From Pseudomonas sp. PDNC002 (GTDB lineage Bacteria; Pseudomonadota; Gammaproteobacteria; Pseudomonadales; Pseudomonadaceae): DNA of 64,000 bases. This document shows, one piece after another, positions 3,090 through 51,663 of this stretch. The position numbers and the translations under genes were made by a program. The notes beneath the pieces were generated by a model, which searched no databases, was not told the origin of the DNA, and saw nothing but the letters and a program-made list of their open reading frames with translations. The stretch spans positions 2,946,001 through 3,010,000 of the forward strand of contig NZ_CP070356.1 of the NCBI RefSeq assembly GCF_016919445.1, written 5' to 3'. The number at the start of each line of letters is the position of its first letter. Positions within the stretch are counted from its first letter, which is position 1.

Positions 3090-3108
3090 TCCCTGATTCA
3101 CCATCCAG

Positions 3109-5007: not shown

Positions 5008-5015
5008 GAAGAAAA

Positions 5016-5040
5016 ACGCTCTCCCGCAAGGGGAGAGCGT
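5016..5040. terminator. Bidirectional terminator between rarD-like gene and NlpC/P60 gene
   Basis: A 10-bp perfect stem (ACGCTCTCCC / GGGAGAGCGT) with a 5-base loop lies between two convergent genes. An A-run on its left side gives a U-tract for the minus-strand transcript. Confidence 0.8.
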
Positions 5041-5046
5041 GATGCA

Positions 5047-6948: not shown

Positions 6949-7170
6949 CCGAATTCCCCTTTTTGTCAGGCCCAGTCAGAGCATGGCATCGGAGTTGACG
7001 CGCTGCCGGTGCGTTTGTCCGATTCTTGACGCTGCCGGCTCGGTTGGCGTTCGACATCCCGGGGTGTCGGGACCAGCCGGGCGCTTTGTCCGGCAATATT
7101 TCCAGCGCGCCGGCGCTGCAAACGGTACGCTATGCAGCTATTTGGTCTTTACGTGATATCGAGGTCTGCC

Positions 7171-8493: not shown

Positions 8494-8510
8494 GTCTTCC
8501 GTGTCACCTG

Positions 8511-8540
8511 AAACGCCTCCCCTGATCGGGAGGCGTTTTT
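8511..8540 (+). terminator. Intrinsic terminator of the helicase gene
   Basis: AAACGCCTCCC / GGGAGGCGTTT stem, loop CTGATC-like, T-run at the end. It also lies just past the stop of the convergent MFS gene, so it may act on both. Confidence 0.9.
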
Positions 8541-8553
8541 GTTTCTGCGTGGA

Positions 8554-10218
8554 TCAGCCCAGCGTCTCCGGCGGCGCCTCGTAGCTACCCGACTCGTAGC
8601 TCACGCCGTGACGGATCACCGGCGGTGCATCGCCATCGTGGAGGCTTGTCACGTTGTCGATGATGGTCTTGTCCTCCAGGGTCAGGCGGTCGAGCATGCG
8701 CAGGTGGCCGATCCAGTTGTCCACCAGGAACAGCTCCTGCCAGACCTCGGGATTACTGACGTCGCGGTACAGCGCCCAGCGCTCCGCCCCATTGCGCAGG
8801 CGCAGACGGCGTAGCGGCTTGGCGGCGCGGACGAAGTCGCGGGTGCGCTCGGCGGGAATCCGGTACTCGATGGAGACCAGTACCGAGCCGCGCTCTGGGT
8901 TGAACACGAAGGTCGGTTGCCCCGGCACGCCGCCCGGCGCACGAGCGATGCTGGCGGAGTTCAGCTCCGGCAGGCGCGAGTTGTAGAGCAGCGCCACGGA
9001 GATCAGCAGCAGGCAGCCGGCGGCGATCAGCGCACCTTGCACACCCATGGTCTCGGCGAAGTGCCCCCAGAGGAAGGAGCCCGCCGCGAGGCCACCATAG
9101 ATGGCTGTCTGGTACAGCGCCAGGGCCCGAGCCTTCACCCAGTCCGGCACGAGGATCTGTACGGCGGAGTTGTAGGTCGCCACTGCGGCGATCCAGCAGG
9201 CACCGCCCAGCACCAGCGCGGGGAAGATCACCCAGAGGTTGTCGACCCAGCCCAGGATGAGCATGACGACGGCGAGGGTGGCGGCGGCGAAGCTGATCAG
9301 CCGGCTGCTGCCCAGCCACTGCCGCGCCTTGCTCACCACGGTGCTGGCGACGATGGCGCCGAGCCCGAGAGCCCCCAGCATGTAGCCGTAGACCGAGGCG
9401 CTGCCGTCCGGGTTGCGGTGCGCCAGTAGCGGCAGCAGTGCCCAGATGGCGCTGGCCGAGAGGCCGAACACCGCCGAACGCAGCATCACCAGGCGAGTGA
9501 CGCTGGAGTACTGGGTGAAGCGCAGCGCGGCGATCACGCCTTCGAAGATATGCTCCGGTGGCAGGGTCCGCTTGGGCACGTCACGGCGCCATTGCCAGAT
9601 CGCCCAGATCAGCGCGGCGTAGCAGATGCAGTTGAACAGGAACACCCAGGATGCGCCGGTGGCCGACAGCAGCAGGCCGCCGATGGCCGGGCCGACGGCA
9701 CGGGCGACGTTGTAGTTGACGCTGTTGAGCAGCACCGCATCGCCGAGCATGCGCGGCGGCACTTGCTCGTTCACCGCCGCCTGCCAGGCGGGGATGGTGA
9801 TCGAGCTGCCCAGCGACAGCCAGAGGATCGACACGATCAGCATCAGCGGGTCGAGATAACCCATGAAGGCCAGTACCGTCACCAGCGCGGCGCCGGAGAG
9901 TTCGACGGTCAGCCCCACCAGCATGATCTTGCGGCGGTCGTGGTTGTCGGCCAGTACGCCGGACATGATCGACAGCAGCACCAGCGGCAACGCCGAGGCG
10001 ACCTGGATCATCGCCACCATCAGCGGGCTGGCATGGGCTTCGGTGACCACCCAGGCGGCGGCGACCGATTGCGCCCAGGTGCCCAGGTTGGCGAACAGGT
10101 TGCAGATCCAGATGATGCGGAACGCGGCGATGCTGAAGGGGGCGAGGACGCCGCTGCGGGATTCGGCTGGATCGGGCTTGAGGGGAAGGTCTTGCTTGGG
10201 TGAAACGGACTGCAGCAT
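8554..10218 (-). CDS. MFS_3-type major facilitator exporter with C-terminal soluble domain
   Basis: The protein has 554 residues. About 12 membrane helices cover residues 25-410, with the MFS loop motif GVLADNHDRRKIM between helices 2 and 3. A soluble tail of about 120 residues (from RGSVLVSIEYRIPAERT) follows and is typical of the MFS_3/DUF894 group related to the enterobactin exporter EntS. The ATG at 10218 is chosen because it gives the family N-terminus and is preceded by AAGG; the frame stays open upstream but without a start with a ribosome-binding site. Likely a drug or metabolite exporter; substrate unknown. Confidence 0.83.
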   Translation of the reverse strand: MLQSVSPKQDLPLKPDPAESRSGVLAPFSIAAFRIIWICNLFANLGTWAQSVAAAWVVTEAHASPLMVAMIQVASALPLVLLSIMSGVLADNHDRRKIMLVGLTVELSGAALVTVLAFMGYLDPLMLIVSILWLSLGSSITIPAWQAAVNEQVPPRMLGDAVLLNSVNYNVARAVGPAIGGLLLSATGASWVFLFNCICYAALIWAIWQWRRDVPKRTLPPEHIFEGVIAALRFTQYSSVTRLVMLRSAVFGLSASAIWALLPLLAHRNPDGSASVYGYMLGALGLGAIVASTVVSKARQWLGSSRLISFAAATLAVVMLILGWVDNLWVIFPALVLGGACWIAAVATYNSAVQILVPDWVKARALALYQTAIYGGLAAGSFLWGHFAETMGVQGALIAAGCLLLISVALLYNSRLPELNSASIARAPGGVPGQPTFVFNPERGSVLVSIEYRIPAERTRDFVRAAKPLRRLRLRNGAERWALYRDVSNPEVWQELFLVDNWIGHLRMLDRLTLEDKTIIDNVTSLHDGDAPPVIRHGVSYESGSYEAPPETLG

Positions 10219-37964: not shown

Positions 37965-38057
<93 letters not shown>

Positions 38058-38164
38058 GCATCTCCTGGTGCGATGAGCTGTCCGGTTACGTAAGTGGCTG
38101 AAATGATTGAAAAATCGTGTTGACAGGTCAGAAGTTTAGCACTAGAATTTGCGCCCTCATCAGC

Positions 38165-38241
38165 GCACTCATAGCTCAGCTGGATAGAGTACTCGGCTAC
38201 GAACCGAGCGGTCGGAGGTTCGAATCCTCCTGAGTGCGCCA
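38165..38241 (+). tRNA. tRNA-Arg (anticodon ACG), copy 1
   Basis: 77 bases: acceptor GCACTCA pairs with TGAGTGC, anticodon loop CTACGAA, encoded CCA. The ACG anticodon is expected to be edited to ICG by TadA. Confidence 0.97.
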
Positions 38242-38340
38242 TATACGAAGCAACGCGAAAGCGGGGTTTCAGTGGCAAAGAAGGCGAAGCCTGAACTTGC
38301 TGCAGCCAGTTGGTGAATCTGGTTAAACTTTACCGACGAC

Positions 38341-38417
38341 GCACTCATAGCTCAGCTGGATAGAGTACTCGGCTACGAACCGAGCGGTCGGAGGTTCGAA
38401 TCCTCCTGAGTGCGCCA
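38341..38417 (+). tRNA. tRNA-Arg (anticodon ACG), copy 2
   Basis: Identical in all 77 bases to copy 1, which starts 176 bases upstream. Probably part of one transcript with it, ended by the terminator at 38423. Confidence 0.97.
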
Positions 38418-38422
38418 TATAC

Positions 38423-38454
38423 AAAAGGGCCTGCAGAAATGCAGGCCCTTTTTC
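38423..38454 (+). terminator. Terminator of the tRNA operon
   Basis: AAAAGGGCCTGC / GCAGGCCCTTTT stem with a 6-base loop and a T-run just after the second tRNA-Arg. Confidence 0.93.
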
Positions 38455-38491
38455 TTTGCGCGGAAGAAAGTTATTTCCACTCGAAGTGCTG

Positions 38492-39004
38492 TCAGCGCTT
38501 TGTCTTTCCCGCCACGCAACCGTCCTCGTCGAATGTGACGCTGCGTGCCCCGTGCTTCTTGTCCGCCAGGTAGTGGTAGCGCAGCGTTTCGTTGTTCTGG
38601 CTGATCGTGTCCGGTCGCCCCAGGGCGCTCTCGACGTCCGCGCGCGTCATCCCCGTCCGGATTCTCCCTTCGATGATCGCCTTGCGCCGGTCCGCGCCGG
38701 TAACGCGATTGCCGCATCCGTTCTGTTGCTCGCCGACAACCACAAGCGTATCGGTCTGGGTGGTGGCTTCCTGTGCGCGTGCATTCCTGTGGGACGCAGA
38801 GGCTGGCGCGGTAGCCATGGGGACGGGCTTGCCGCTGCCGGGCGTGGGATTGCTCGGCGCTGTCACCTCCTGCTGTTCATCGACGGGGCAGCCATGCTGG
38901 CTAAACAGCACGCTGCCGTCAGCGGCGGTGCAGCGGAACACCGTGGCACCTTCGCTGGTCGGTACTAAGGTCATGAGTGAGGACAGCAGAATGGGCAGGC
39001 GCAT
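38492..39004 (-). CDS. Secreted DUF4124-domain protein with BamE/OmlA-like C-terminal segment
   Basis: The protein has 170 residues. It has a short signal peptide (MRLPILLSSLMTLVPTSEG), a DUF4124 motif (ATVFRCTAADGSVLFSQHGCP), a Pro/Ala-rich linker, and a C-terminal segment IRTGMTRADVESALGRPD...YHYLADKKHGARSVTFDEDGCV that resembles the SmpA/OmlA (BamE) fold. GGAGGAA precedes the ATG. It occupies the place where PAO1 has the alpR-alpABCDE region, between the tRNAs and mgtE. Function unknown. Confidence 0.72.
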   Translation of the reverse strand: MRLPILLSSLMTLVPTSEGATVFRCTAADGSVLFSQHGCPVDEQQEVTAPSNPTPGSGKPVPMATAPASASHRNARAQEATTQTDTLVVVGEQQNGCGNRVTGADRRKAIIEGRIRTGMTRADVESALGRPDTISQNNETLRYHYLADKKHGARSVTFDEDGCVAGKTKR

Positions 39005-39326
39005 GGTTTCCTCCGTGATTACGAGCCTGCCAAGAGCCTAGGAGTGGAGTTTGTCAGTCGGAGCCGGGTGTCCTGTGGGAGCTTTCGGGCGTCAGACCGG
39101 GCAGTGATTCGGCAGTGAACTTTCGGCCGCAAGCGATTGTTCTGGCCGCCATTTTGTAACGCCTAATACACCCCGGAGTGTTATCATTTCCCGCATCTGC
39201 CCTCGATGGGCGCATGGGACACCACCATGGACTTACCCAGTAGTTATTCAGAACCCCGATTGCGTACACACGACCTGATGTATTGATCCCCTCTGGCCCG
39301 TTCTGCCACTGGGGGTGGAGCGTGCT
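39005..39326. other. Intergenic region upstream of mgtE
   Basis: 322 bases between divergent genes. CCCC at 39289 and GGGGG at 39311, just before the mgtE ribosome-binding site, could pair and mask it; this is weak. No gene, no M-box-like magnesium riboswitch architecture was recognised. Confidence 0.4.
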
Positions 39327-40769
39327 ATGACCGAAGTAGAAGCCAAGAAGCCGCAGGAAAGCCTGCAGGACCGCCTCAACCAGGTGGTCGACCTGCTGCA
39401 CAAGCACAAGCTGGTGGAAGACCTGACGCACCGTCAGGAAGGCCAGCATCATGATCGCGTCGAAAACCTGGTTCATCGCCAGAATCTTGCGGAGCTTCAA
39501 CGCAAGCTGGACGAGTTGCACCCGGCTGACATCGCCCACATCCTCGAGTCCCTTCCGCTGGATGACCGCCTGACGGTCTGGCAGCTGGTCAAGGCCGAGC
39601 GCGACGGCGATATCCTCCTCGAAGTCTCGGATTCCGTGCGGGAAACCCTGATCGCCGACATGGACGATCACGAGATTCTCGCCGCCGCCCGGGACATGGA
39701 CGCCGACGAACTCGCCGACCTCGCACCGGAGCTGCCGCGCGACGTCGTCCACGAGTTGATGGAAACCCTCGATGCGCAGCAGCGCGAGCGCGTGCGCTCG
39801 GCGTTGTCCTACGAGGAGGACCAGGTGGGCGCGCTGATGGACTTCGAGATGGTCACCATCCGCGACGACGTCAGCCTGGAGGTAGTGCTGCGCTACCTGC
39901 GCCGCCTGAAAGAACTGCCCGGCCACACCGACAAGCTCTTCGTGGTCGACTACGACGGCGTGCTCAAGGGTGTGCTGCCGATCAAGCGCCTGTTGGTTAA
40001 CGATCCGGAGAAGGACGTGGCGGAAGTCATGGCCACCGACCCGGTGACCTTCAGTCCTGACGAAGACGGCTACGATGCCGCCCAGGCATTCGAGCGTTAT
40101 GACCTGATTTCCGCCCCGGTGGTGGACAAGAACGGCAAGCTGATCGGTCGTCTGACCATCGACGAAATGGTCGACCTGATCCGTGAGGAAAGCGAAAGCG
40201 AAGTCCTGAACATGGCGGGTCTGCGCGAGGAGGAAGATATCTTCGCCTCGGTCTGGAAATCGGTGCGCAACCGCTGGGCCTGGCTGGCCACCAACCTCAT
40301 CACCGCGTTCATCGCCTCGCGGGTGATCGGCCTGTTCGAAGGCTCGATCGAGAAGCTGGTGGCGCTGGCAGCGCTGATGCCCATCGTTGCCGGCATCGGC
40401 GGCAACTCCGGCAATCAGACCATTACCATGATCGTGCGCGCCATGGCGCTGGACCAGATCCAGACCAACAGCGCCAACCGCCTGCTGCGCAAGGAACTCG
40501 GCGTGGCCCTGGTGAACGGCCTGGTATGGGGCGGGGTGATCGGCCTGGTAGCCTTCTATCTGTATGGCAACTGGGAGCTGGGCGCGGTGATGACCGGCGC
40601 GATGACGCTGAACCTGCTGCTCGCCGCCCTGATGGGCGTACTGATCCCGATGACGCTGCTGCGTCTGGGGCGCGACCCGGCCATGGGTTCCAGCGTGATG
40701 ATCACCGCCATGACCGACAGCGGTGGTTTCTTCATCTTCCTCGGGTTGGCCACGCTGTTCCTGATGTAG
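39327..40769 (+). CDS. mgtE: MgtE-type magnesium transporter
   Basis: The 480-residue protein has an N-terminal MgtE_N superhelical domain (LHPADIAHILESLPLDDRLTVWQLV), two CBS domains (about residues 150-275) and a C-terminal five-helix channel domain with the Mg-selectivity segment PIVAGIGGNSGNQT and TAMTDSGGFF. The cytoplasmic domains close the pore when Mg is plentiful. The ATG at 39327 is chosen over a GTG four codons upstream because GGGGTGGAG lies 6 bases before it. In P. aeruginosa MgtE (PA0913) also affects type III secretion. Confidence 0.95.
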   Translation: MTEVEAKKPQESLQDRLNQVVDLLHKHKLVEDLTHRQEGQHHDRVENLVHRQNLAELQRKLDELHPADIAHILESLPLDDRLTVWQLVKAERDGDILLEVSDSVRETLIADMDDHEILAAARDMDADELADLAPELPRDVVHELMETLDAQQRERVRSALSYEEDQVGALMDFEMVTIRDDVSLEVVLRYLRRLKELPGHTDKLFVVDYDGVLKGVLPIKRLLVNDPEKDVAEVMATDPVTFSPDEDGYDAAQAFERYDLISAPVVDKNGKLIGRLTIDEMVDLIREESESEVLNMAGLREEEDIFASVWKSVRNRWAWLATNLITAFIASRVIGLFEGSIEKLVALAALMPIVAGIGGNSGNQTITMIVRAMALDQIQTNSANRLLRKELGVALVNGLVWGGVIGLVAFYLYGNWELGAVMTGAMTLNLLLAALMGVLIPMTLLRLGRDPAMGSSVMITAMTDSGGFFIFLGLATLFLM

Positions 40770-40786
40770 CCAGCGCCAGCGAAAGG

Positions 40787-40809
40787 GCCGCCCGCGAGGC
40801 GGCTTTTTT
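40787..40809 (+). terminator. Intrinsic terminator of mgtE
   Basis: GCCGCC / GGCGGC stem, 5-base loop, six Ts. Confidence 0.85.
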
Positions 40810-40846
40810 GTGCCCGTCATGCTGTCGGAGGGAAATCGCGGGCATG

Positions 40847-40869
40847 AAAAAGCCGGCTCAGGGCCGGCT
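40847..40869 (-). terminator. Intrinsic terminator of amrZ
   Basis: AGCCGGC / GCCGGCT stem with a 5-base loop. On the minus strand it is followed by a U-run and lies about 23 bases past the amrZ stop. Confidence 0.88.
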
Positions 40870-40891
40870 GTTTTCGGTGTGTCCGAACGAC

Positions 40892-41224
40892 TCAGGCGTC
40901 GTTCTGCGCCATCTCGGCGTCGTGCGCGATCAGGGCGATCAGGGCGTTCTGCTGGCGGTGGGTCAGCTGGCGGAAGCGCTGCAGCAGTTCGCGTTCGTGC
41001 AGGCTGAGCTCCGGGCTGTCCAGGCGGATGCCCAGGTTGTCCTGCAGGGCGCCTTCCTGAAGCAGGCTCTGCTCGAGGCGCGCGATGATCTCGGAGTTCA
41101 TGCTGCGATGGTGGCTGCGAGCGACGTCGGCGATACGCTCACGCATGCCTTCGGGCAGACGTACGACGAACTTGTCAGCAGTGCGGCTGGAGTAGGTGGG
41201 GGTTGCCTGTTTCAATGGGCGCAT
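40892..41224 (-). CDS. amrZ: Ribbon-helix-helix (Arc-type) regulator AmrZ
   Basis: The 110-residue protein reads almost like P. aeruginosa Amr[21 protein letters not shown], then [32 protein letters not shown] as the beta-strand/helix-helix DNA-binding unit, and a C-terminal tetramerisation part. AmrZ controls alginate, motility and biofilm polysaccharide genes, including cyclic-di-GMP enzymes. Here it sits between mgtE and a lone phnN; in PAO1 it adjoins the complete phn (C-P lyase) operon. Confidence 0.94.
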
Positions 41225-41714
41225 ACATTAAACCTGTAAGTCAGGGAGGCCGATGCCATGGGTCAGCGTTGGTTCAGGCCCTTTGACAGCGATTTCCAAT
41301 GGCCGTTCAGCGCGTCGTCAAAGCTTTTGAAGAAAAATCCAATAAGTTGACGTCAAACCTTCGGCATATTGTGTCGTGGGTAGCGGCGAAATGCCAGCAC
41401 CAATCGTCCGAAATGAGACCGTCTAGGCAGACCTTCCTTTGGTATGGAACTGCTGGCGATGTGCCGGATGTTGTGAGCGTAGACGATTTGCACACGGCTT
41501 CGGCGGGCCGGGGATGCCGTTGGGCGGCTCGAGTCGCCGGGTCATCACGGAGGTCGCGAATGATGGCACAGCAACTGACCACACGGCAGGGTAGACAGCC
41601 TCTGCTTCGTAGGATTCCACCGTTTATCGCTGATATCCCACATTCCGCAGCGTATTATCCTCCTGGCGGATCAGAACAGATGTAATGCCGAGCCGCCGGC
41701 GTTCCGAGAGTTTT
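41225..41714. other. Intergenic region between amrZ and phnN
   Basis: 490 bases holding the divergent promoters of amrZ and phnN. An open frame at 41299-41685 has no plausible codon use or known motif and was rejected. Composition is more AT-rich next to amrZ, as expected for its promoter. If the phn operon was once here, this is where it was lost. Confidence 0.45.
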
Positions 41715-42278
41715 ATGACCTCAGGCAGACTGATTTATCTGATGGGCCCTTCCGGGGCCGGCAAGGACAGCGTCCTGCAGGCCGCCAGCGTGCCCCTGGC
41801 GGCGCGGGACTGCCGGATCGTACAGCGTGTGATAACCCGTTCCGCCGAAGCGCGCGGTGAGTCCGCGCATTCGGTGAGCATCGAGGCGTTCGCCGAGATG
41901 GAGCGCAACGGCGCCTTTGCCATGAGTTGGCGCGCCAACGGCCTGCACTACGGTATCCCACGTGAGATCGATGACTGGCTGCGCGCCGGCCATGACGTGC
42001 TGGTCAATGGCTCGCGCAAGTATCTCGCCGAGGCACGGCGCCGTTATCCGCAGCTGATCGCGGTGCTGCTGCGCGTCGAGCCCGAGATCCTGCGGCAGCG
42101 CCTGCTCAAGCGCGGACGCGAGACATTGCCGGAGATCGAGGCGCGGCTGGCGCGCAATGCGCATTTCGCCGATGGCTTGCCCGGACCGCTGTTCGAGCTG
42201 GACAACTCGGTTTCCCTCGATGTCACCGTTGGCCGCCTTCTCGACCTGCTCGACCCTCCGGACGCCGAAGCGGGCTGA
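41715..42278 (+). CDS. phnN: Ribose 1,5-bisphosphate phosphokinase PhnN
   Basis: The 187-residue P-loop kinase of the guanylate-kinase fold has its P-loop GPSGAGKDS at residues 11-19, with the PhnN-typical RVITRSAEARGESAHSVS and FAMSWRANGLHYGIPREID. It makes PRPP from ribose 1,5-bisphosphate in the C-P lyase pathway. The ATG at 41715 is preceded by GAGAG; an ATG ten codons upstream is less likely. No other C-P lyase gene is in the window, so it is an orphan here. Confidence 0.9.
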   Translation: MTSGRLIYLMGPSGAGKDSVLQAASVPLAARDCRIVQRVITRSAEARGESAHSVSIEAFAEMERNGAFAMSWRANGLHYGIPREIDDWLRAGHDVLVNGSRKYLAEARRRYPQLIAVLLRVEPEILRQRLLKRGRETLPEIEARLARNAHFADGLPGPLFELDNSVSLDVTVGRLLDLLDPPDAEAG

Positions 42279-42281
42279 GCC

Positions 42282-42758
42282 TCAGTCCAGCGTCAGCGAC
42301 AGGCTGACGCCATGGGGTGCGAAGCCCATGGCGGAGTAGAAACGATGGGCCATCTCGCGGTCCTGATGGCTGGATAGCGCCAGCTTGTAGCACTTCCAGT
42401 CCCGAGCCCATTCCACCGCCCGACCGATCAGGGCCTGGCCGATGCCTTGGCCGCGAGCGCGGCTGTCCACCACCATGTCCTCCAGGATCGCCGAGCGGGC
42501 GAAATCGTGGGCGATGTGCTCGATCAGATGGAGCGTGCAGGTACCCAGCAAGGCGCCGTCGCGCTCGGCCACCAGGGTGACCCGCGAGTGCTGCGGATTG
42601 CCCAGGGCGAGGGCGAGCAATGCGGTGTCAGGAAGCGGGTCGTGGATTCCCAGCTGTCGTAGCAAGGGAGCCAGCGCCTGCGCGTCTTGCGCGGTCGCGA
42701 CGCGTACATCGAACGTGGCGAAGGGTGAATCGGGCAGGGCGCCGCTGTCTGTCGTCAT
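42282..42758 (-). CDS. GNAT-family N-acetyltransferase
   Basis: The 158-residue protein shows acetyl-CoA binding motif A (LEDMVVDSRARGQGIGQALIGRAVEWARD) with R/Q-x-x-G-x-G/A, and YKLALSSHQDREMAHRFYSAMGF as motif B. It faces phnN with a gap of only 3 bases between stops. Substrate unknown. Confidence 0.86.
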   Translation of the reverse strand: MTTDSGALPDSPFATFDVRVATAQDAQALAPLLRQLGIHDPLPDTALLALALGNPQHSRVTLVAERDGALLGTCTLHLIEHIAHDFARSAILEDMVVDSRARGQGIGQALIGRAVEWARDWKCYKLALSSHQDREMAHRFYSAMGFAPHGVSLSLTLD

Positions 42759-42850
42759 GATCTTTCTCCCACTGGCGCTGAAATTATGGACGGTGGCCGT
42801 GGCAGCGGCATGACAAATCGCTTGTCGGTGGTTAACATGCCGACCCGATT

Positions 42851-42927
42851 GTCCCGGTAGCTCAATTGGATAGAGCGTCCCCCTCCTAAGGGGAAGGTTG
42901 GAGGTTCGACCCCTCTCCGGGACACCA
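42851..42927 (+). tRNA. tRNA-Arg (anticodon CCT)
   Basis: 77 bases: acceptor GTCCCGG pairs with CCGGGAC, anticodon stem TCCCC/GGGGA with loop CTCCTAA (CCT at 42885-42887), encoded CCA. It reads AGG codons, which are rare in this genome. Confidence 0.97.
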
Positions 42928-42986: not shown

Positions 42987-44054
42987 TCAAGGTGAATAGG
43001 TCACGCGGTTGCGGCCGTTGTGCTTGGCGTTGTAGAGCGCCTGGTCCGCCTTGATCAGTGCCTGGCTGAGGTTACCGTCGGCGGTGAGGTGGGCAAGGCC
43101 CAGGCTGATGGTGACGCTGGGCTTGCCGGGCAGGTCCGCGGTGACACTGCGCAATTGTTCCACCCGCGCCTGGACGTCTTCGACGCTGATGCCCCAGAGG
43201 TACAGGCCGAACTCTTCGCCGCCCAGCCGGGCGAACTCGAAATCCTGCATTTCGCGCTTGATGGTTTGCGCCACGCGGGTCAGCACCTCGTCGCCGACAT
43301 CGTGCCCGTAGGTGTCGTTGACTCGCTTGAAGTGGTCGATGTCGATCATCACCAGGTAGCGCTGTTCGCCGTCGCCCGCCAGGCGCTGGCCAACGCGGGT
43401 CATGAAGGAGCGGCGATTGGGAATGCCGGTGAGTGCGTCGAGGTAGGCCTGGTCCAGCAGCAGGCGGGCCATGGCGTAGTTGTACAGCTTGGCCTTGCTC
43501 AGATGATTGAAGATGTAGATCGACAGCGCGCTGATGAACAGCGGATAGCAGATCAGCATGCTACGGCGCGCGTCGAATTCCGGCACGTCGCCCAGCAGCG
43601 GATTGAGGAAGATCCAGGTAATCACCAGCACCGAGTAGAAGGCGGTGTTGTTCAGTGGCATCGCCGTGGCGCTGTACAGCACGGTGGCGGCGGCGATCAC
43701 CAGCCAGGCCTGGCGGATGGCCTCGGGAACGCCATCGATGACCAGCCGGGCGCCGAGGCTGAAGGTGAGGACGAAGGCCAGGTTCAGCCAGTAGAAGTGC
43801 ACCGCCTTGCGCACGAAGGTAGTGACGATGGTGATCAGGAAGAACACGCCGAGGAAGGCCACTGATTTCCAGGTGAAGCCCTGGTCGGCCTGGAAGCTGA
43901 CGATCAGGTCGAACAGTAGCCAGATGGCGATGCTGACGCCGAATACCAGCAGGCTGAAGCCGTGGAGCCGCTCGAAGTCGTGCTGGAGGAATTCGGCCTT
44001 GATCCCGGCCGGCACGCTTTGCTTGAGTACTTCGGATTCAATGGTCTTGAACAT
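42987..44054 (-). CDS. Membrane-bound diguanylate cyclase (GGDEF)
   Basis: The 355-residue protein has about six hydrophobic segments over residues 30-195, forming an integral sensor region, and a GGDEF domain over about 200-355. The active-site loop is GGEEF (residues 278-282), with DALTGIPNRR and DIDHFKRVNDTYGHDVGDEVL upstream, so it should make c-di-GMP. The inhibitory RxxD site normally found five residues before GGEEF is not present, which suggests weak product inhibition. ATG 44054 gives MFKTIESEV; a longer frame has no support. It lies 96 bases after the DUF4434 gene, in the same direction as wecB-nfrB-nfrA, so it may feed c-di-GMP to NfrB. Confidence 0.9.
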   Translation of the reverse strand: MFKTIESEVLKQSVPAGIKAEFLQHDFERLHGFSLLVFGVSIAIWLLFDLIVSFQADQGFTWKSVAFLGVFFLITIVTTFVRKAVHFYWLNLAFVLTFSLGARLVIDGVPEAIRQAWLVIAAATVLYSATAMPLNNTAFYSVLVITWIFLNPLLGDVPEFDARRSMLICYPLFISALSIYIFNHLSKAKLYNYAMARLLLDQAYLDALTGIPNRRSFMTRVGQRLAGDGEQRYLVMIDIDHFKRVNDTYGHDVGDEVLTRVAQTIKREMQDFEFARLGGEEFGLYLWGISVEDVQARVEQLRSVTADLPGKPSVTISLGLAHLTADGNLSQALIKADQALYNAKHNGRNRVTYSP

Positions 44055-44150
44055 CAATCGCCCTGTGCGAGTGTGGGATCGCTCGCGCGAGAATAGCCGA
44101 ACTGGAGGCGCCCCGCGCAAGCGGGCAGGGCGCTTCGAGCAGCGGTTGTT

Positions 44151-45014
44151 TCAGGGCGCTGCGTGGGCTCGCTGGTTGTCCAGCAGGGCCTTGCCCCAGG
44201 GCCGGTAACGCACCTCGAATACTGCGCTGGCGTGGCAGCCGGTGGAGGTTGCCGAAGGCGTCGCGGGTTCGGCCTGGAACGGCTGCCCGGCGGCGCTGGT
44301 CTGGCGGAAAGCTTCGCGGACGATGCCGACCGAACAGGGCAGGGCAGCGGCATAGGCCTGGCGCACGCGCTCGGGCAGGGCGCCGGTGCCGGCACCGTCC
44401 TGCCACCAGACCTGGATGCCCAGCCCGGCGATCTGCCCCAGCCAGTTGCCGTAAACCTGCGGCGCCAGCTTGCCACCGGAGAACGCGCTCAGTTGCAGCG
44501 GTGCGTTCAGCTTGCCGGCGAAATCCTTGAGCTGGCGTTGCAGGGCCTGGCGACGTTCGACGCCCTGGAAGTGCCAGTCGTCCAGTTCCATCGGCAGGTA
44601 CCAGGCGGTGACCGGCAGCTTCCACTGCTCGCTCACCTGCCGTTGCTGCGCCAGGGAGCGCCCGAGCTGGTGCTGCCAGTAGGCTTCCAGGCCGGGGGTG
44701 TCCAGTTCGCTCTGGCGCTGGTAGTAGGCCGAGTCCATGTACAGGCCGAGCACCAATTGCAGGCCATTGTCGTGGGCGCTTGTCAGGGCGCGCGCGAGCC
44801 AGCCGTCGGCGCCGCCGAAGTCGGAGTCGCCATATACCGTCCATTGCACGATCAGGGTCTTCGCGCCCTGGGCTGCACTGGTGCGCCAGATCTGCTGCCA
44901 TTGAGCCTCGCTCAGCGAGGCGTCGACGTTCAGCGGCTGGTAGAACAGGCGATCGTCTGCCTGGACCGTGAGCGTGGAGAGCAACAGCGTGAGGGTGAGC
45001 AACAGGCGGCGCAT
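44151..45014 (-). CDS. Periplasmic DUF4434-family protein (YbcH-like)
   Basis: The 287-residue protein has a signal peptide (MRRLLLTLTLLLSTLTVQA) and a DUF4434 domain. The pattern YQPLNVDASLSEAQW, then TLIVQWTVYGDSDFGG, LVLGLYMDSAYYQ and AWYLPMELDDWHF suggests a TIM-barrel fold like that of glycoside hydrolases. E. coli has YbcH in the same position after nfrB-nfrA. Its start overlaps the nfrA stop by one base (TGATG), so it is translationally coupled. It may trim or modify the secreted glycan; this is inference. Confidence 0.75.
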   Translation of the reverse strand: MRRLLLTLTLLLSTLTVQADDRLFYQPLNVDASLSEAQWQQIWRTSAAQGAKTLIVQWTVYGDSDFGGADGWLARALTSAHDNGLQLVLGLYMDSAYYQRQSELDTPGLEAYWQHQLGRSLAQQRQVSEQWKLPVTAWYLPMELDDWHFQGVERRQALQRQLKDFAGKLNAPLQLSAFSGGKLAPQVYGNWLGQIAGLGIQVWWQDGAGTGALPERVRQAYAAALPCSVGIVREAFRQTSAAGQPFQAEPATPSATSTGCHASAVFEVRYRPWGKALLDNQRAHAAP

Positions 45015-48000
45015 CAGAAGTTCACCTCGAGTCCCACCAGCCAGCCATTGGCTTTTTCATAGAGATTGCCCGCCATGCCCAACTGGTACTCGGTGCGCAC
45101 GGTGACGTGGGCGCGGTAGGCGTTGTAGCGGTCCTCGCCGTACCAGTATTGCCAGCGCAGACCGACGCCGCTGCGCAGGTCCTGGCGCCAGTCGTTGCTC
45201 GGGTCCTGGGTGGAGAGCTCGGCGAAGCCGTAGGGCATGATGGTTTGCGGTGAGTCCACGGGCAGCTTCCAGGCATGACCCTGCTGATAGCGCGAGACCC
45301 ACTGGTGATCGCCGGCATGGGTCCACCACGCGAAGTCGGTATAGAGGAAGCGCTCGTCCCAGTCGCTTTCATCGACGCGCCAATCGTTGCGGTACTCGCC
45401 CTGGTCGAGGACGGACGCCGTGGCGCGCAGCAGGAAGTCGGTGGAGGTCTGGCCGTACTTGTCCCGCTGGCGGGCGTAGCGCTCGAACTTCTCCGGCGTG
45501 CCGATCTCGTGCCAGCGCAGTCCTTCGAAGGCGTCTTCCGGATCGCCGTCGTCCTTCACCGTGTTCTGTTTGTACAGCTCGCTGTAGAGGTTGAGGTTGT
45601 AGTCGCCGAACGGCTTGTAGCGCAGGCCGAAGCCGGCGGCGAGGGTCTGGGTGTAGTTCTTGCGCCCTTCGTTGCCGGCAATGGCGCGGCCATACACTGA
45701 GAGTGTGCTGCCGTTGCGGGTCGGTTCCTCGCCCAGGGCGTGGTCCCAGATGAAGGTCTGCAGGTTCTGCGATTGCGCACGGCGTTTGTTGCCGACCTTG
45801 TTTTCGCCGATGGGGACCGCCACCGTGGTGACGCCCGCCGGCGACCAGGTGCTGGCGATGGTCAGGTTGTCGCGCTGCGACAGCACCTGGTGCGCGCGGC
45901 GCTGGCGGTAGCGGCGGGCTTCGAGGCTGCCGTATTCGTCGTCGGCGGCTATCGGGTCCTGTTCCAGGTCGATCACCCGGCGCAGCTCGCGGCGGGCGGC
46001 GAAGCTGTCCTCGGCTTCGTCGTAGCGCCAGGCGAGGGTCTCGCCGAGGCGGAAGTCCTCGGGGTAGTCGCGGGTCGCTCGCTCCAGATAGGGGATCGAG
46101 GTACGGCGCTCCTCTGGCGTGTCGGTACCGGCCAGGCGCATGCCGTAGTCGGCACGGAAGCGCGGGTTGTCCGGTTCGCGGCGTACCGCCTCGGCGAGCC
46201 AGAGCTTGCTCTGCTGTTTGTCGCCGGCCTTCTGTGCGCTACCGGCGGCGTTGTAGAAATGCTGGGCGTTTGGCTCGTGCTGCAGCGCCTCGCGATGCCG
46301 CGTCAGGGCCTCGGGATAATCGCCGCGAGCGTCGGCGATAGTGGCGCCGAGGGCCCAGTCGTCCGCGCTGCCTTTCTTCGACTGCTGCCAGAAGCGCTCG
46401 GCGGCGGCGTTGTCACCGGTGACCAGCGCAGCGCGGCTGGCGGTCAGGCGGGCGTTGTCGTTGAGGTCGCCGGCCGGCAGCGCCTTGAAGATGCGCAGGG
46501 CGCCTGCCGGATCGCCCGCGGCTTCCAGTGCATAGGCCAGCGGTAGTTGGCTTTGCTTGTCGCCGTGGGCGATGGCGGCCTGGTAGTACACCACGGCTTC
46601 ACCGGGACGCGCCGGCATGGCGCAACGGCCCAGGGCGCGCAGCTCGCCGGGCGTGTTGGAATCCGGGCTCAGGTAGCGTTGCAGGGCATCGCAGCGCCCG
46701 GCCTCGGCCAAGCGTCCGAGCAGATAGCCGCGCGAGACCGGATCGGCCTTGGGCAGCAATGCTTCGATGCGTGCCACGTCCAGCGGTGTGTCGCTGCGTG
46801 CGTGAATGCCGGCCAGGCGTTGCAGCAGCGTGGGCGGCAGGTTGCCGCCACGGCGGTCGTAGGCGTTCTCCAGCAGTTGTCGCGCGTGCTCGGTTCGTCC
46901 GGCATTGAGGGCGAGGTAGCTGGCCTGATCGAGTGCCTTGGTATCGCCGGTCTGGCGGTAGCGTTGCTCCCAAAGCGCCGCCGCCTCGCCGGTGCGGCCG
47001 CGCGCTTGCAGGAGTTCGGCGCGCTGGCGTGTGGTGTCGGGAGTCTGTGGCTGGCGCGACAGCCACGCCAGGGCGAGGTCGGTGCGTCCCTGCTTTTGCC
47101 AGGCCTCCACCAATCGCGCGCGCCGTGCGCTGTCCCAGGGCTCGGGCAATGAGGTGTTTTCCAGCAGGTCGGTGGCGTTCAGGCGCTGGGCCAGGACCAG
47201 CCAGGTCTGTGGGTCTTCCTGGGGGTGGCACTGGCGCAGCTTCTGCAGGGCGGCCTGCTGATCATGACGCGACAGCCACTCGCTGGTTTCCAGGCAGGGG
47301 CGCTTCAGGTGGTCGCTCAGTTCGCTTACCAGAGGGGCGTCATTGCTGTCGCGGGCCAGCTCCAGTAGCTGCGCCTGACGCTTCGGATCGCGGCGATCCT
47401 GTTCCGGCAGGGCGAGCAACCAGCGCTTGGCGACTTCGGTCTGGCCGACGGCGATAGCGCGGTCGATGATGGCGAAGCGAGCCTGCTGCGCGGCGTCGGC
47501 AGTGGGCGCCTGTTCGATGAGCTGTTGCAGCGGCCGCTCTTCCAGGCGCTGGGCGTACGCGTTGGACAGCCGGCGCCAGTCGTCCGCGCCGAGCTGGTGG
47601 CTGGCGGCCAGGGGCGCCAGCTGGGCGATGGTGGTGTCCCAGTCGCGCAGCTGCTCGGCCCAATTGGCGCGGGCTTCACGCAGCACGCGGCCGTCGTTGC
47701 CTGGCGGCAGGGTGCCGAGCCATTCCAGCGCCTTGGCCGCGCCCTGGGTCTGGCCGAGCTTGAGGCTATAGGCCTGCCACAGGCGCACGCGCTCGTTGGC
47801 GTTGCCGGTATGGGCCAGCCACTGGTTGACCTGGGCTTCGGGTGGCGGGCCGTTCTCGATCATGTCCAGGCGCAGTTCGGTCAGTGCCTGCTCGCCGGCT
47901 TCGGTGCCGGCCAGTGCCTGAGCTTCCTTTTCGGCGTCGGCGTAGCGCTGCTGCTTGGCCAGGGCCTGCACCAGCAACCCGCGAGCCTCCCCGTTGTTCG

Positions 48001-48199
48001 GCACACGCTGCAGCAGGTGGCGCATCAGGCGTTCGACTTCTACCCAGTTGTTCTTCTTCGCTTCCTTGTAGCCCCGGTCAAGGTAGGGAAAGCTGCGGAA
48101 GCGCTGGAATTCGGTGAGCTGGTCGTCGGCGGCGTGCGCCAAAGGGCTGGCGGCCGCCGCCAGGATCAGGCCGTAGAGAAGGGTTTGTTGCAATTTCAC
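45014..48199 (-). CDS. nfrA: NfrA-like outer-membrane polysaccharide export protein with TPR repeats
   Basis: The 1061-residue protein (E. coli NfrA about 990) has a signal peptide (1-23), a long periplasmic TPR-type helical solenoid over about residues 30-760, and a C-terminal beta-barrel NfrA_C region (from about 810: YGRAIAGNEGRKNYTQTLAAGFGLRYKP). It ends in NWLVGLEVNF-like sequence with terminal Phe, as expected of a BAM-assembled barrel. In E. coli NfrA is the phage N4 receptor component and the presumed exporter of the NfrB glycan. The start overlaps nfrB by 4 bases. The architecture parallels BcsC, PgaA and AlgK/AlgE. Confidence 0.88.
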   Translation of the reverse strand: MKLQQTLLYGLILAAAASPLAHAADDQLTEFQRFRSFPYLDRGYKEAKKNNWVEVERLMRHLLQRVPNNGEARGLLVQALAKQQRYADAEKEAQALAGTEAGEQALTELRLDMIENGPPPEAQVNQWLAHTGNANERVRLWQAYSLKLGQTQGAAKALEWLGTLPPGNDGRVLREARANWAEQLRDWDTTIAQLAPLAASHQLGADDWRRLSNAYAQRLEERPLQQLIEQAPTADAAQQARFAIIDRAIAVGQTEVAKRWLLALPEQDRRDPKRQAQLLELARDSNDAPLVSELSDHLKRPCLETSEWLSRHDQQAALQKLRQCHPQEDPQTWLVLAQRLNATDLLENTSLPEPWDSARRARLVEAWQKQGRTDLALAWLSRQPQTPDTTRQRAELLQARGRTGEAAALWEQRYRQTGDTKALDQASYLALNAGRTEHARQLLENAYDRRGGNLPPTLLQRLAGIHARSDTPLDVARIEALLPKADPVSRGYLLGRLAEAGRCDALQRYLSPDSNTPGELRALGRCAMPARPGEAVVYYQAAIAHGDKQSQLPLAYALEAAGDPAGALRIFKALPAGDLNDNARLTASRAALVTGDNAAAERFWQQSKKGSADDWALGATIADARGDYPEALTRHREALQHEPNAQHFYNAAGSAQKAGDKQQSKLWLAEAVRREPDNPRFRADYGMRLAGTDTPEERRTSIPYLERATRDYPEDFRLGETLAWRYDEAEDSFAARRELRRVIDLEQDPIAADDEYGSLEARRYRQRRAHQVLSQRDNLTIASTWSPAGVTTVAVPIGENKVGNKRRAQSQNLQTFIWDHALGEEPTRNGSTLSVYGRAIAGNEGRKNYTQTLAAGFGLRYKPFGDYNLNLYSELYKQNTVKDDGDPEDAFEGLRWHEIGTPEKFERYARQRDKYGQTSTDFLLRATASVLDQGEYRNDWRVDESDWDERFLYTDFAWWTHAGDHQWVSRYQQGHAWKLPVDSPQTIMPYGFAELSTQDPSNDWRQDLRSGVGLRWQYWYGEDRYNAYRAHVTVRTEYQLGMAGNLYEKANGWLVGLEVNF

Positions 48200-50370
48200 G
48201 CGGCCTCCCGGGCGATGCGATAGGCCTCGTGCTGCTCGCCGGCCTGTTCGAGCAGGGCTTCGTCGAGTACCTGCTGGGTGATGATGCCGCGCTTGATCAG
48301 GTGCTCGCCGAGCGAGTCCTGCTCGGGATCGAAGTCGATCAGGGCCTGGTTGAACAGGCTCGGCGGCACCATGCCGCGTACCTGCAGCAGCGTGCCGAAC
48401 AGCACCAGGTGGCTGCAGACTCGCTCCATCAGCGCCTCATTGCTCTGGCGTTGCCGCAGCACCTCGAGGATGGTGCGGGTTTCCTCGCTCTGGTGCCGGC
48501 CACCGTACCAATGGCGCAGGCCCAGGGTGACGCGGCCTTGCGGCGCGAGCTGGCCGCGCACGGGGCGCTTGAGCTGGCGGCTGATGGCGCCGATGGAGAC
48601 CTGGCTGATCTGCTGTTCGCTGGCCAGGACCAGGGTGTCGCCTTCCACGGCCACCGGCAGTACGGCGTAGCGCAGCGCCAGCTTGCGTGGCAGCGCTTCG
48701 ATCAGCTTCGGATCGAGGGTGAAGGGATTGAGCGGCGCCCATGCCTCGCCCAGTTCCTCGGCCAGGGCTTCCACCAATTGCGTGCTGGTGATCAGCTCGC
48801 GCAGCAGCAGTTCGCGGCCCAGGCGCCGGCGAACCGGGCTGGTGAGTGCCGATTGCAGTTGCTCCTCGGTGATCAGGCCCTTTTCCTTGAGGCGCTGGCC
48901 CAGCGGCGTGCGCTGCGGGCCGGCGAGGGCGGGGAATTCGTGGGTGGTCTTGTCCCACGCCACGCGGCGCGAATCGCCCATCTCCATCACCTGCCTGAGC
49001 GCGCGCAGGTTGGCGAAGAAGTTGACGAAGTTGCTCCACATCATCCGCGGCGCCGACAGCAGCCCTTCGAAGATGCCGTAGAAGCGAGTGACGAACCAGA
49101 AGCGCTGGAACAGCCGGTTGAGCAGCATCAGGCCGTTGAGGAACAGCAGCACCACCAGCAGCTGGCTGCCTTCGAGGATCGAGGGGAAGCGCCAGGCATT
49201 GGGCGACAGGGTGGTGATCAGCCACATGGTGATCAGCACCAGGAACAGCAGGTTGACCAGGAAGCTCAGCAGGTAGGCGATCAGCCCCCGGCGGTCGCGC
49301 CAGAGGAAGTAGTTGAGCATGCCCTTGCGGCTCCAACCCAGGTTGCGCGTGCCCTGGAAGACGATCCCGGTGATCCACCGGGACTTCTGCCGGATCGCGT
49401 GCTGCCAGGTGCGCGGGAAGTGTTCGCGCACGCAGATGACCTGCGAGAAGCGCCGGTCCATGCCTACCACCCAATCGGCTTTCAGCGCGAGCTGCGGATC
49501 GGTGATCGAGTAGCGGGCGAAGATGCACTTCATGCCCTTCTGCTTGAGGCGGAAACCGATGTCGTAGTCCTCAGTGAGACTCTGCACATCGAAGGCGATG
49601 CCGTCGCCGTCTTCCAGCAGCGCGGCGATGGCGCGGCGGCTGAAGCAGGTGCCGACGCCGGCGCTGGGCACCTGGCCGGTCAGCGCCTCGCGCACCGGCA
49701 CGTCCTTGCCGTGGTTCTCGGCGAACTCGTCGACATAGTGGCCGGCGGTGAAGCCGGTCCATTCCGGGGCGTAGGGGTAGACCGGAATCTGGATCAGGTC
49801 CTTGGCCGGCAGCAGGTAGTTGAACAGGCGCAGCTCCAGCGGCGAGATGACGTCCTCGGCGTCGTGCAGGATGAAGCCGGAGAATTCGATCTTCGCGTCG
49901 GCCTCGAAGCGCAGGATGGCGTCGATGATGTTGTTCAGGCAGTCGGCCTTGCTGGTCGGGCCGGGGCGCGCGCAGACCACCTTGTGCACGTTGGGGTAGT
50001 GCAGGCAGACGGCGTCCACGTCCGCCTGGGTCTGCGGATCGTTGGGATAGGTACCGACGAAGATCTGGTAGTTCTCGTAATCCAGCGTGGACGCGGCCAG
50101 GCGCGCCATCTCGCCCACCACGCCGACTTCGTTCCAGGCCGGCACCATGATCGCCAGCGGCTTTTCCGGGGCGGCGAAGAGGCGCTCCTCGTCTGCCCGG
50201 TCGAAGCGGCTGTAGATGCGGAAGCGCCGGACCAGCACGCGGCCCCAGTACACCAGGTCGATGAACAGGTCATCCAGGCCGAGCAGGAACATCAGCGCGG
50301 CCAGGATGATGGCCAGGTACTTCAGGGCGAACAGGACGTAGGTGACGATATCGATCAGTTCGAGGCTCAT
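48196..50370 (-). CDS. nfrB: NfrB-like c-di-GMP-responsive family 2 glycosyltransferase
   Basis: The 724-residue inner-membrane enzyme begins with a hydrophobic stretch (about 8-35) followed by a GT2 domain with the processive-synthase residues: PAWNE, DAED at 170-173, TED at 266-268 and QKSRW at 328-332. Four more membrane segments lie between about 350 and 440. The C-terminal part is an MshEN/T2SSE_N-type c-di-GMP-binding region with LGxxL motifs at Leu490, Leu517 and Leu687. E. coli NfrB polymerises a ManNAc-containing glycan when bound to c-di-GMP. It overlaps wecB and nfrA by 4 bases each. Confidence 0.9.
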   Translation of the reverse strand: MSLELIDIVTYVLFALKYLAIILAALMFLLGLDDLFIDLVYWGRVLVRRFRIYSRFDRADEERLFAAPEKPLAIMVPAWNEVGVVGEMARLAASTLDYENYQIFVGTYPNDPQTQADVDAVCLHYPNVHKVVCARPGPTSKADCLNNIIDAILRFEADAKIEFSGFILHDAEDVISPLELRLFNYLLPAKDLIQIPVYPYAPEWTGFTAGHYVDEFAENHGKDVPVREALTGQVPSAGVGTCFSRRAIAALLEDGDGIAFDVQSLTEDYDIGFRLKQKGMKCIFARYSITDPQLALKADWVVGMDRRFSQVICVREHFPRTWQHAIRQKSRWITGIVFQGTRNLGWSRKGMLNYFLWRDRRGLIAYLLSFLVNLLFLVLITMWLITTLSPNAWRFPSILEGSQLLVVLLFLNGLMLLNRLFQRFWFVTRFYGIFEGLLSAPRMMWSNFVNFFANLRALRQVMEMGDSRRVAWDKTTHEFPALAGPQRTPLGQRLKEKGLITEEQLQSALTSPVRRRLGRELLLRELITSTQLVEALAEELGEAWAPLNPFTLDPKLIEALPRKLALRYAVLPVAVEGDTLVLASEQQISQVSIGAISRQLKRPVRGQLAPQGRVTLGLRHWYGGRHQSEETRTILEVLRQRQSNEALMERVCSHLVLFGTLLQVRGMVPPSLFNQALIDFDPEQDSLGEHLIKRGIITQQVLDEALLEQAGEQHEAYRIAREAA

Positions 50371-51521
50371 TCGAACTCGCTTGGCGTACGTGACTCACCG
50401 AACCAGGACAGCAGCCGGGCGACGATCTTCTCGCTGGCGTGGCCATCGCCATAGGGGCTGAACACCCGGCTCATCTGCTCGTACACCTCTTCATCGCGCA
50501 GCAGGTGGCTGGCTTCGCTGACGATGCGTCCGGTGTTGGTGCCCACCAGCACCACGGTGCCGCCTTCCAGCACGGCGGGGCGCTCGGTGACGCGGCGCAG
50601 CACCAGCAACGGCTTGCCCAGCGCCGGGGCTTCTTCCTGGATGCCGCCCGAGTCGGTGAGGATGATGTAGGCGCGGTCCATCAGCCAGACGAAGTGCTGG
50701 TAGTCCTGCGGGGCGATCAGGTGGATGTTCGGCTTGTCCGAAAGCAGGCCGTAGACGGCGTTCTGCACTTGCGGATTGAGGTGCACCGGGTAGACGAAAT
50801 CCACGTCGGGAAAGCGCTGCGCCAGTTCCGCGAGGGCCTGGCAGATACGCTCGAAGCCCTTGCCGAAGTTCTCCCGGCGGTGCCCGGTGATCAGCACCAG
50901 GCGGCGGTCGCCGGTGAATTTCGCCAGCGGCGAATCGGCGGCGGGCTTCCAGTTGGTTTCATGCAGGTGCTCGCGCATCCACAGGAGGGCGTCGATCACG
51001 GTGTTGCCGGTGACCTCGATCTGATCGATGTTCACCCCTTCGCGCAGCAGGTTGTCGCGCGAGGCCTTGGTCGGCGGGAAGTGCAGGTCGGCGATCACCG
51101 CGGTGAGGCGGCGGTTGGCCTCTTCCGGCCAGGGCTGGTGGATGTTGCCGGTGCGCAGCCCGGCCTCGACATGGCCGACGGGAATCTGCCGGTGGAAGGC
51201 GGTGAGGGCGGCAATGAAGCTGGTGGTGGTGTCACCGTGGACCAGTACGATGTCCGGGCGGTGGCGATCGTAGCTGTCGTCCAGTTTGCCCATCATCTGC
51301 AGGGACAGGCTGTTGAGCGTCTGTCCCTGGGTCATCACGTCGAGGTCTTCATCGACCTCCAGTTCGAAGGAGTCCAGGACTTGCTGTAGCATCTCGCGGT
51401 GCTGGCCAGTGGAGCAGATGCGTAGCTCGATTTCGGGGGTACGGCGGAGGACGCGCGCAAGCGGCGCCATCTTGATGGCTTCCGGACGAGTGCCGAAAAC
51501 CATGGTGACCTTGTACTTCAT
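50367..51521 (-). CDS. wecB: UDP-N-acetylglucosamine 2-epimerase (non-hydrolysing)
   Basis: The 384-residue cytosolic enzyme interconverts UDP-GlcNAc and UDP-ManNAc. Signatures: VFGTRPEAIKMAPL, STGQHREML, VHGDTTTS, GHVEAGLRTGN, PEEANRR, TGHRRENFG and the loop DSGGIQEEAP. The ATG at 51521 has AAGGAG 6 bases upstream. It is the first gene of the exopolysaccharide operon and would supply UDP-ManNAc to NfrB. No wecC (ManNAc dehydrogenase) gene is nearby, so the sugar probably stays ManNAc. Confidence 0.94.
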   Translation of the reverse strand: MKYKVTMVFGTRPEAIKMAPLARVLRRTPEIELRICSTGQHREMLQQVLDSFELEVDEDLDVMTQGQTLNSLSLQMMGKLDDSYDRHRPDIVLVHGDTTTSFIAALTAFHRQIPVGHVEAGLRTGNIHQPWPEEANRRLTAVIADLHFPPTKASRDNLLREGVNIDQIEVTGNTVIDALLWMREHLHETNWKPAADSPLAKFTGDRRLVLITGHRRENFGKGFERICQALAELAQRFPDVDFVYPVHLNPQVQNAVYGLLSDKPNIHLIAPQDYQHFVWLMDRAYIILTDSGGIQEEAPALGKPLLVLRRVTERPAVLEGGTVVLVGTNTGRIVSEASHLLRDEEVYEQMSRVFSPYGDGHASEKIVARLLSWFGESRTPSEFE

Positions 51522-51612: not shown

Positions 51613-51663
51613 TGTCCAGCCCGAACTGGACATCCTTGTGATACAGGTCAGCTATATTGACCT
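51613..51663. promoter_or_regulatory. Two palindromes in the wecB/LysR divergent promoter region
   Basis: 51613-51632 is TGTCCAG, 6 bases, CTGGACA. 51645-51663 is AGGTCA, 7 bases, TGACCT; its core GTCAGCTATATTGAC resembles the FleQ box (remembered as GTCAATAAATTGAC) but is one base longer. They lie 92-142 bases before wecB and 114-164 before the LysR gene. Confidence 0.5.

Follow-up and report, generated by a model that had tools for sequence, protein, structure and literature searches.

The window analysed here is a stretch of 64,000 nucleotides from Pseudomonas sp. PDNC002 (contig NZ_CP070356.1, positions 2,946,001 to 3,010,000). It carries a block of five genes, wecB, nfrB, nfrA, ybcH and a gene for a membrane diguanylate cyclase, which are arranged head to tail on the minus strand and match, in this order, the Pfam families Epimerase_2, GT2 with MshEN, TPR with NfrA_C, DUF4434 and GGDEF. 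The genes of the block are as follows.

50367..51521, minus strand: wecB (nfrC), start ATG; non-hydrolysing uridine diphosphate-N-acetylglucosamine (UDP-GlcNAc) 2-epimerase, 384 amino acids

48196..50370, minus strand: nfrB; inner-membrane GT2 polymerase with a C-terminal MshEN domain binding cyclic diguanylate (c-di-GMP), 724 amino acids

45014..48199, minus strand: nfrA, start GTG; outer-membrane export protein with TPR repeats and NfrA_C, 1061 amino acids

44151..45014, minus strand: ybcH; DUF4434 protein, 287 amino acids, probably periplasmic

42987..44054, minus strand: diguanylate cyclase gene, start ATG; 355 amino acids, N-terminal six-helix membrane domain and GGEEF domain

Consecutive genes overlap by 4 (wecB/nfrB), 4 (nfrB/nfrA) and 1 base (nfrA/ybcH), and a gap of 96 bases separates ybcH from the cyclase gene, so that the coordinates confirm the layout given in an earlier account made from the letters alone (the sequence-only reading). 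The start of wecB, an ATG at 51521, is supported by an ATG at the homologous place in 24 of 24 relatives compared, and by a GGAGC directly before it that is kept in 12 aligned sequences of the genus.

The first three proteins resemble their E. coli counterparts to different degrees. WecB shares 54% identity with E. coli WecB, scores 476.5 bits against an NCBIfam cut-off of 210, and keeps all residues compared, among them the Lys that corresponds to K15 of E. coli, whose change inactivates the E. coli enzyme (PMC8669472). It is encoded by the single Epimerase_2 match in the whole genome. Proteins of family PF03721 are found at four places in the genome, three of them full-length and one partial, and the proposed absence of wecC agrees with a comparison of the three full-length ones, which are only 27–29% identical to E. 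coli WecC. NfrB is 53.5% identical to E. coli NfrB and exceeds the cut-off of the NCBIfam NfrB equivalog (1232.8 against 1170 bits). Alignment, which the sequence-only reading had named as a test of itself, showed that all compared residues of its GT2 domain are kept: D170, D268 of the TED motif and W332 of QxxRW correspond to E. coli D169, D267 and W330. The same holds for L490, G491, G518 and L536 of its MshEN domain (PF05157), which correspond to L490, G491, G519 and L537. These E. coli residues are those mutated in two papers of 2021 (PMC8669469, PMC8669472). In a PDB sequence search, the MshEN part matched solved MshE and PilF domains, some of them deposited as c-di-GMP-binding domains. 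NfrA matches PF13283 and PF14559 and is 25% identical to E. coli NfrA across 693 aligned positions; a PDB sequence search with it returned no NfrA structure, and mainly designed TPR and other TPR proteins were matched.

The grouping of these genes is widely conserved. Among 181 NfrB relatives, 80 were followed as named loci, two of them labelled Pantoea. In these 80 loci, nfrB is adjoined by nfrA in 80, ybcH in 80, wecB in 70 and the cyclase gene in 65, all on the nfrB strand, and the order nfrB-nfrA-ybcH-cyclase held in 65 of the 65 loci that have the cyclase. A grouping by chance is contradicted by nfrA and ybcH, which come after nfrB on its own strand in every named locus. Adjacency of wecB was counted from 100 bits, and the 70 loci include L111, where wecB is in pieces. 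All ten genomes whose named locus has no adjacent wecB carry an Epimerase_2 match elsewhere; this check also took in three further genomes, in which wecB is adjacent. Fragmented genes were seen at a few loci: wecB lies in pieces over several frames at L049 and L111, a wecB remnant is present at L095, and nfrA is split over frames in L071 and L092, by either decay or assembly error. Among the named relatives, NfrB is 94–96% identical in P. nicosulfuronedens, P. pseudonitroreducens and P. nitroreducens, which points to the P. nitroreducens group.

A sample of 198 genomes of the family gave a similar picture. With nfrB counted at E-values up to 1e-60 and at most five candidates scored per genome, nfrB was found in 24 genomes, 15 of which are among the 25 genomes of the window's genus. 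It is adjoined by wecB in 23 of the 24; the gene is elsewhere in G162 and split over frames in G190. A relative of the cyclase membrane domain is present in 19 of the 24 genomes with nfrB and in 7 of the 174 without it, counts that are not independent because the genomes are related. The co-occurrence of wecB and the cyclase gene with nfrAB, which the sequence-only reading had put forward as a test of itself, was thus observed both in this sample and in the named loci.

A second type of cluster emerged from a genus sample around G190, in which an NfrB relative (E-value up to 1e-100, at most three candidates scored per genome) is present in 93 of 298 genomes. The NfrB rows fall into 55 at 76–81% identity and 42 at 38–45%, and four genomes hold both types. 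We read six of the 42 second-type rows (L152–L157). In L152–L154, wecB is accompanied by a BcsB-like protein, an NfrB with MshEN, NfrA and a YbcH relative, which in L153 matches DUF4434 at 25.6 bits, below the cut-off of 30; AlgF- and AlgX-like genes are also present in L153 and L154. In L155–L157, wecB stands with NfrA, AlgX-like genes and a relative of that BcsB-like protein (41% identical in L155 and L157, and 40% in L156); the NfrB of these three is shorter and lacks a Pfam match to MshEN, and YbcH was not matched. AlgX-like acetylation genes therefore occur in five of the six clusters, and a cyclase relative, with matches of more than 60 residues considered, in none of the six stretches. 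Since wecB is present in all six, the epimerase appears, in this small sample, to be the constant companion, and the cyclase to mark the window's type.

The cyclase differs from the dedicated enzyme of E. coli. Its GGEEF motif is conserved in 42 of 42 aligned sequences. Of the two positions of the inhibitory site (I-site), the first is occupied by Met, Val or Ala and the second mainly by Phe or Tyr, never by the Arg and Asp of RxxD (0 of 42), and E. coli DgcJ has RKSD before its GGDEF. An enzyme lacking the RxxD site may escape product inhibition. Against the NCBIfam DgcJ model, the window's cyclase reaches 84.6 bits (cut-off 500). It aligns with DgcJ, compared as 486 residues because the fetched stretch stops short of the stop codon, in the GGDEF part only (30% over 140 amino acids by blastp); outside this part blastp gave nothing but a 24-residue match at chance level. 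A structure model built with 41 of 55 non-redundant relatives (predicted local distance difference test score, pLDDT, 87; predicted template modelling score, pTM, 0.66) has a short helix followed by six long N-terminal helices. Among solved structures it is best matched by P. aeruginosa ImcA (8wcn; template modelling score, TM, 0.63 over 376 columns, 24% identity), which we take to be PA1851 and for which we know of no nfr link. PMC10904736 describes six transmembrane helices in ImcA, a six-helix membrane domain required for its activity and a tie to iron signalling via IsmP, and PMC8669472 a periplasmic dCache domain in DgcJ. The modelled ImcA-like six-helix domain in place of the dCache domain suggests that the window's cyclase and DgcJ probably respond to different input signals.

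YbcH exceeds its NCBIfam cut-off (353.8 against 344 bits), and its model, built with 50 of 71 non-redundant relatives (pLDDT 91.4, pTM 0.87), shows strands and helices alternating in the manner of a TIM barrel; the eight main strands are found at 22–25, 53–56, 86–90, 135–145, 173–178, 201–205, 229–234 and 263–266. In this model, strand 4 carries E143 close to its end, D206 follows strand 6, and strand 7 ends with E234. All three acids are invariant in 51 of 51 aligned proteins and in 13 of 13 rows of a wider alignment, which covers E. coli, clusters of the second type and three distant members of the family and reaches down to about 27% identity; D94 and D146 are changed in the second-type clusters. 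In retaining glycosidases of clan GH-A, strands 4 and 7 end in the Glu residues that serve as acid/base and nucleophile, and an Asn usually precedes the strand-4 Glu. This Asn was not found in YbcH, where Met, Leu, Ala or Glu precedes E143 in the 13 aligned rows. Based on the barrel-like model and the invariant Glu residues on strands 4 and 7, YbcH is probably a periplasmic glycosidase.

In print, YbcH has been named a putative scaffold (PMC8669469), that is, a non-catalytic protein bridging NfrB and NfrA. The same source reports that ybcH is dispensable for phage N4 infection of E. coli and that its deletion suppresses the motility effect only partly. The Foldseek hits of the model are also in keeping with a scaffold: the top ones are TIM-barrel proteins but weak, with TM to the query of only 0.2–0.5, and mixed, with pyruvate carboxylases ranked first, aldolases also present, and GlcNAc-cleaving barrels (SleL, GH20, GH84 and dispersin B) among them. 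A PDB sequence search with YbcH gave one chance-level match only, and DUF4434 was not mentioned among the matches listed in open-licence full-text literature. However, acids paired and kept as strictly as E143, D206 and E234 would be rare in a scaffold, and we consider the scaffold proposal somewhat doubtful, although a serious competitor of the probable glycosidase.

Taken together, the block is very probably an Nfr (NGR-type) exopolysaccharide operon that makes and exports a polymer under c-di-GMP control. In this scheme, WecB would convert UDP-GlcNAc to UDP-N-acetylmannosamine (UDP-ManNAc), and NfrB, the inner-membrane GT2 polymerase, would be switched on by c-di-GMP on its MshEN domain and polymerise ManNAc or a ManNAc-containing chain. 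The chain would exit via the TPR and outer-membrane barrel of NfrA, YbcH would work on it in the periplasm, where trimming as a glycosidase is its most likely role, and the adjacent membrane cyclase may deliver c-di-GMP locally, if cyclase and NfrB are paired in Pseudomonas. In E. coli, c-di-GMP binds NfrB, and infection by phage N4 needs the GT and MshEN residues of NfrB, WecB and one dedicated cyclase (PMC8669469, PMC8669472). The core of the scheme, c-di-GMP-gated export through NfrB and NfrA with supply by WecB, has good support from the conserved active sites, from linkage and from these published E. coli genetics.

Several points weigh against this reading. We know of no experiment on this strain, and NfrA stays under its NCBIfam equivalog cut-off (1035 against 1223 bits). 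As of the 2021 papers, the chemistry of the NfrB polymer was not yet established in E. coli. The remaining points concern the cyclase, which might be a general c-di-GMP source lying beside the operon by chance rather than a dedicated partner of NfrB. A cyclase relative is missing beside the operon in 15 of the 80 named loci, although within these the contig ends there in L105, a short GGDEF piece is present in L079 and a GGDEF gene lies on the opposite strand in L133. Moreover, the seven nfrB-less genomes with a relative include G022, where it is full-length (L027 6683–7750) and nfrB, nfrA and ybcH are gone; G018, where it is nearly full-length (L026 7538–8593) and adjoins wecB; G115, G127, G142 and G184 (L028–L031), where it is full- or nearly full-length; and G081, with a match of 65 residues only. 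Because it occurs in genomes without nfrB, the cyclase gene may have other targets. On the other side stand the much higher share of nfrB genomes with a relative (19 of 24 against 7 of 174, with the reservation on relatedness given above), its constant place after ybcH on the same strand wherever it is present in the named loci (65 of 65), and the lack of a relative in the six stretches of the second type that were read, where three NfrB proteins show no Pfam match to MshEN. A chance neighbour is rather unlikely in our judgement, and we retain the cyclase as the probable dedicated partner of NfrB.

The block is embedded among phosphonate genes. On the wecB side lie an aminoethylphosphonate-type LysR regulator, a PhnT2-type ABC (ATP-binding cassette) ATPase and a PhnU2-type permease, all above their NCBIfam cut-offs, and on the cyclase side a GNAT protein (not above its cut-off) and PhnN (above it), with a tRNA gene between the GNAT and cyclase genes:

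42851..42927, plus strand: tRNA-Arg(CCT), bordering the block on the cyclase side; a neighbour, outside the pathway

Together with tRNA-Ser(GCT) and two tRNA-Arg(ACG) genes, it belongs to a set of tRNA genes close to the block (window 37965–42927).

An alternative raised by this position is that the block came in as a mobile island at tRNA-Arg(CCT), since it starts 59 bases past the 3' end of the tRNA gene. In addition, an element with integrase-like and VapE-like genes lies in the same gap, between LysR and tRNA-Arg(CCT), in G021 (L145, about 1062–9810); its integrase-like gene matches PF00589 at 25.6 bits, just below the cut-off of 27.1, and 45 bases of the tRNA 3' end are repeated at the far edge of the element. 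In the window, however, no 11-base piece of tRNA-Arg(CCT) is repeated between 42700 and 52000, and the G+C content of the block (63–70%) is close to that of its surroundings (60–68%). Within the genus, at least one phn-type flank stands beside the operon in the window and likewise in each of the 14 other genomes that carry nfr, hence in all 15. Partial copies at the site further suggest loss. Among the ten nfr-less members of the genus, G015 has a wecB piece at the site (residues 1–164, with one stop in the family match) and another Epimerase_2 gene elsewhere, and G022 has a short wecB-like piece (48% over 45 residues) along with its full-length cyclase. In G018, wecB lies next to the cyclase match near a contig end, and no phn flanks are in the stretch. 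No nfr trace was found by tblastn in G019, G003 and G001, where LysR lies close to the tRNA or phnN, and in G012, G014 and G004 no LysR flank was found within the stretch read; in this comparison of sites, LysR and ABC-ATPase matches were counted from 45% identity. The tenth member is G021, with the element described above. The mobile island is thus not supported and in our view very unlikely, and G015 and G022 are most simply explained by deletion from an ancestral operon.

Upstream of the operon, a further feature was found:

51646..51662, no strand assigned: palindrome GGTCA-N7-TGACC, a candidate operator some 125 bases upstream of wecB

Of the 14 nfr-bearing relatives in the genus, 13 (loci L033–L045) share with the window this palindrome upstream of wecB. 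It is not present in five nfr-less site stretches (L027, L144, L146, L148 and L149), and L145 has a differently spaced match only, inside the inserted element. It is likewise missing upstream of wecB in the other nfr-bearing loci scanned (L047–L055, L064, L073, L086 and L104), and therefore belongs to the window's genus. It resembles the FleQ box (GTCA-N6-TGAC) with one extra base. The window showed no match to simple patterns for sigma-54, FliA and FleQ boxes within the 280 bases before wecB, and 24 relatives gave one FliA-like (L044) and one sigma-54-like match (L046). Flagellar control of the E. coli type is not evident here. A general promoter and terminator scan gave no more than the level of shuffled sequences.

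The operon may also be of interest with respect to phages, as the N4 sheath protein binds NfrA in E. coli (PMC8669472). A search of 50,697 phage records found relatives of this protein in 118, of which 13 bear the name Pseudomonas phage. The matches listed include inbricus (two records, 54% over 100% of the length), Arace01 (44% over 83%), Ppu-503 (35% over 73%) and PspYZU01 (two records); MG018928, PP179312, KY971609 and OR683508 are Pseudomonas phage records with such relatives. No title or abstract on a receptor was found for Halfdan and P. taiwanensis among the matches listed, and PMC11726461 was set aside, its N4 being a Vibrio phage. Selection by phages could explain the loss of nfr. We put forward, tentatively, a wider proposal: YbcH would be an unrecognised periplasmic glycosidase using the E143/E234 pair, a Pseudomonas six-helix cyclase without inhibitory site would replace DgcJ, and the same glycan would be wired to another signal in each lineage and repeatedly lost, perhaps under phage pressure.

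With its single WecB-family epimerase encoded in the nfr operon, and with no close relative of WecC among the three full-length dehydrogenases that were compared, this genome is a clean host for isolating the polymer and naming its sugar. YbcH, if a glycosidase, could be a tool to cut and sequence the Nfr polymer, and Pseudomonas phages with an N4 sheath relative, such as inbricus with its whole-length match, make the receptor question testable.

The sequence-only reading knew of no description of this arrangement as a Pseudomonas exopolysaccharide locus, a statement overtaken by section 11 of PMC8669469 (Junkermeier and Hengge 2021), which reports wecB linkage and an associated cyclase gene. 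Covering 1,841 NfrB homologs, that section states that organisms without another wecB have one directly linked to nfrB, with P. soli SJ10 as an example, and that a GGDEF gene accompanies the nfr operon 'in most pseudomonads' and may be the fourth gene after nfrBA-ybcH in some. Taken together, these statements describe the five-gene arrangement in pseudomonads, and P. soli LMG 27941 (L104) has all five genes. The self-contained c-di-GMP-dependent NfrA/NfrB pathway proposed earlier is well supported in its biology, but its cyclase is not of the DgcJ type and its novelty did not hold. Our study adds the cyclase type and its missing I-site, the fold and acids of YbcH, the partial copies in three nfrB-less relatives and the palindrome.

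To conclude, the window's operon can be placed among known systems as follows. It shares with the NfrB-NfrA-YbcH (NGR) system of E. coli K-12 the same four families (epimerase, synthase, exporter and DUF4434) and the same catalytic and c-di-GMP-binding residues. The comparison confirms, as proposed earlier, that wecB and dgcJ lie elsewhere in the E. coli genome, whereas both functions are in the block here. While DgcJ combines dCache with RKSD, the window's cyclase has a modelled six-helix domain, no RxxD and similarity in the GGDEF part only; in its six helices it is like ImcA of P. aeruginosa, an enzyme of iron signalling via IsmP at 24% identity. The pseudomonad operons of PMC8669469, with wecB beside nfrB and an associated GGDEF gene, correspond to the window, and no essential difference was found from what section 11 describes. 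The Achromobacter cluster, reported in PMC8669472 as is the ManNAc proposal, joins nfrB with wecB and nfrA in one cluster, as in the window. The Achromobacter and Simplicispira clusters add BcsB-like and/or acetyltransferase genes, and in this they resemble the second Pseudomonas type rather than the window's operon.

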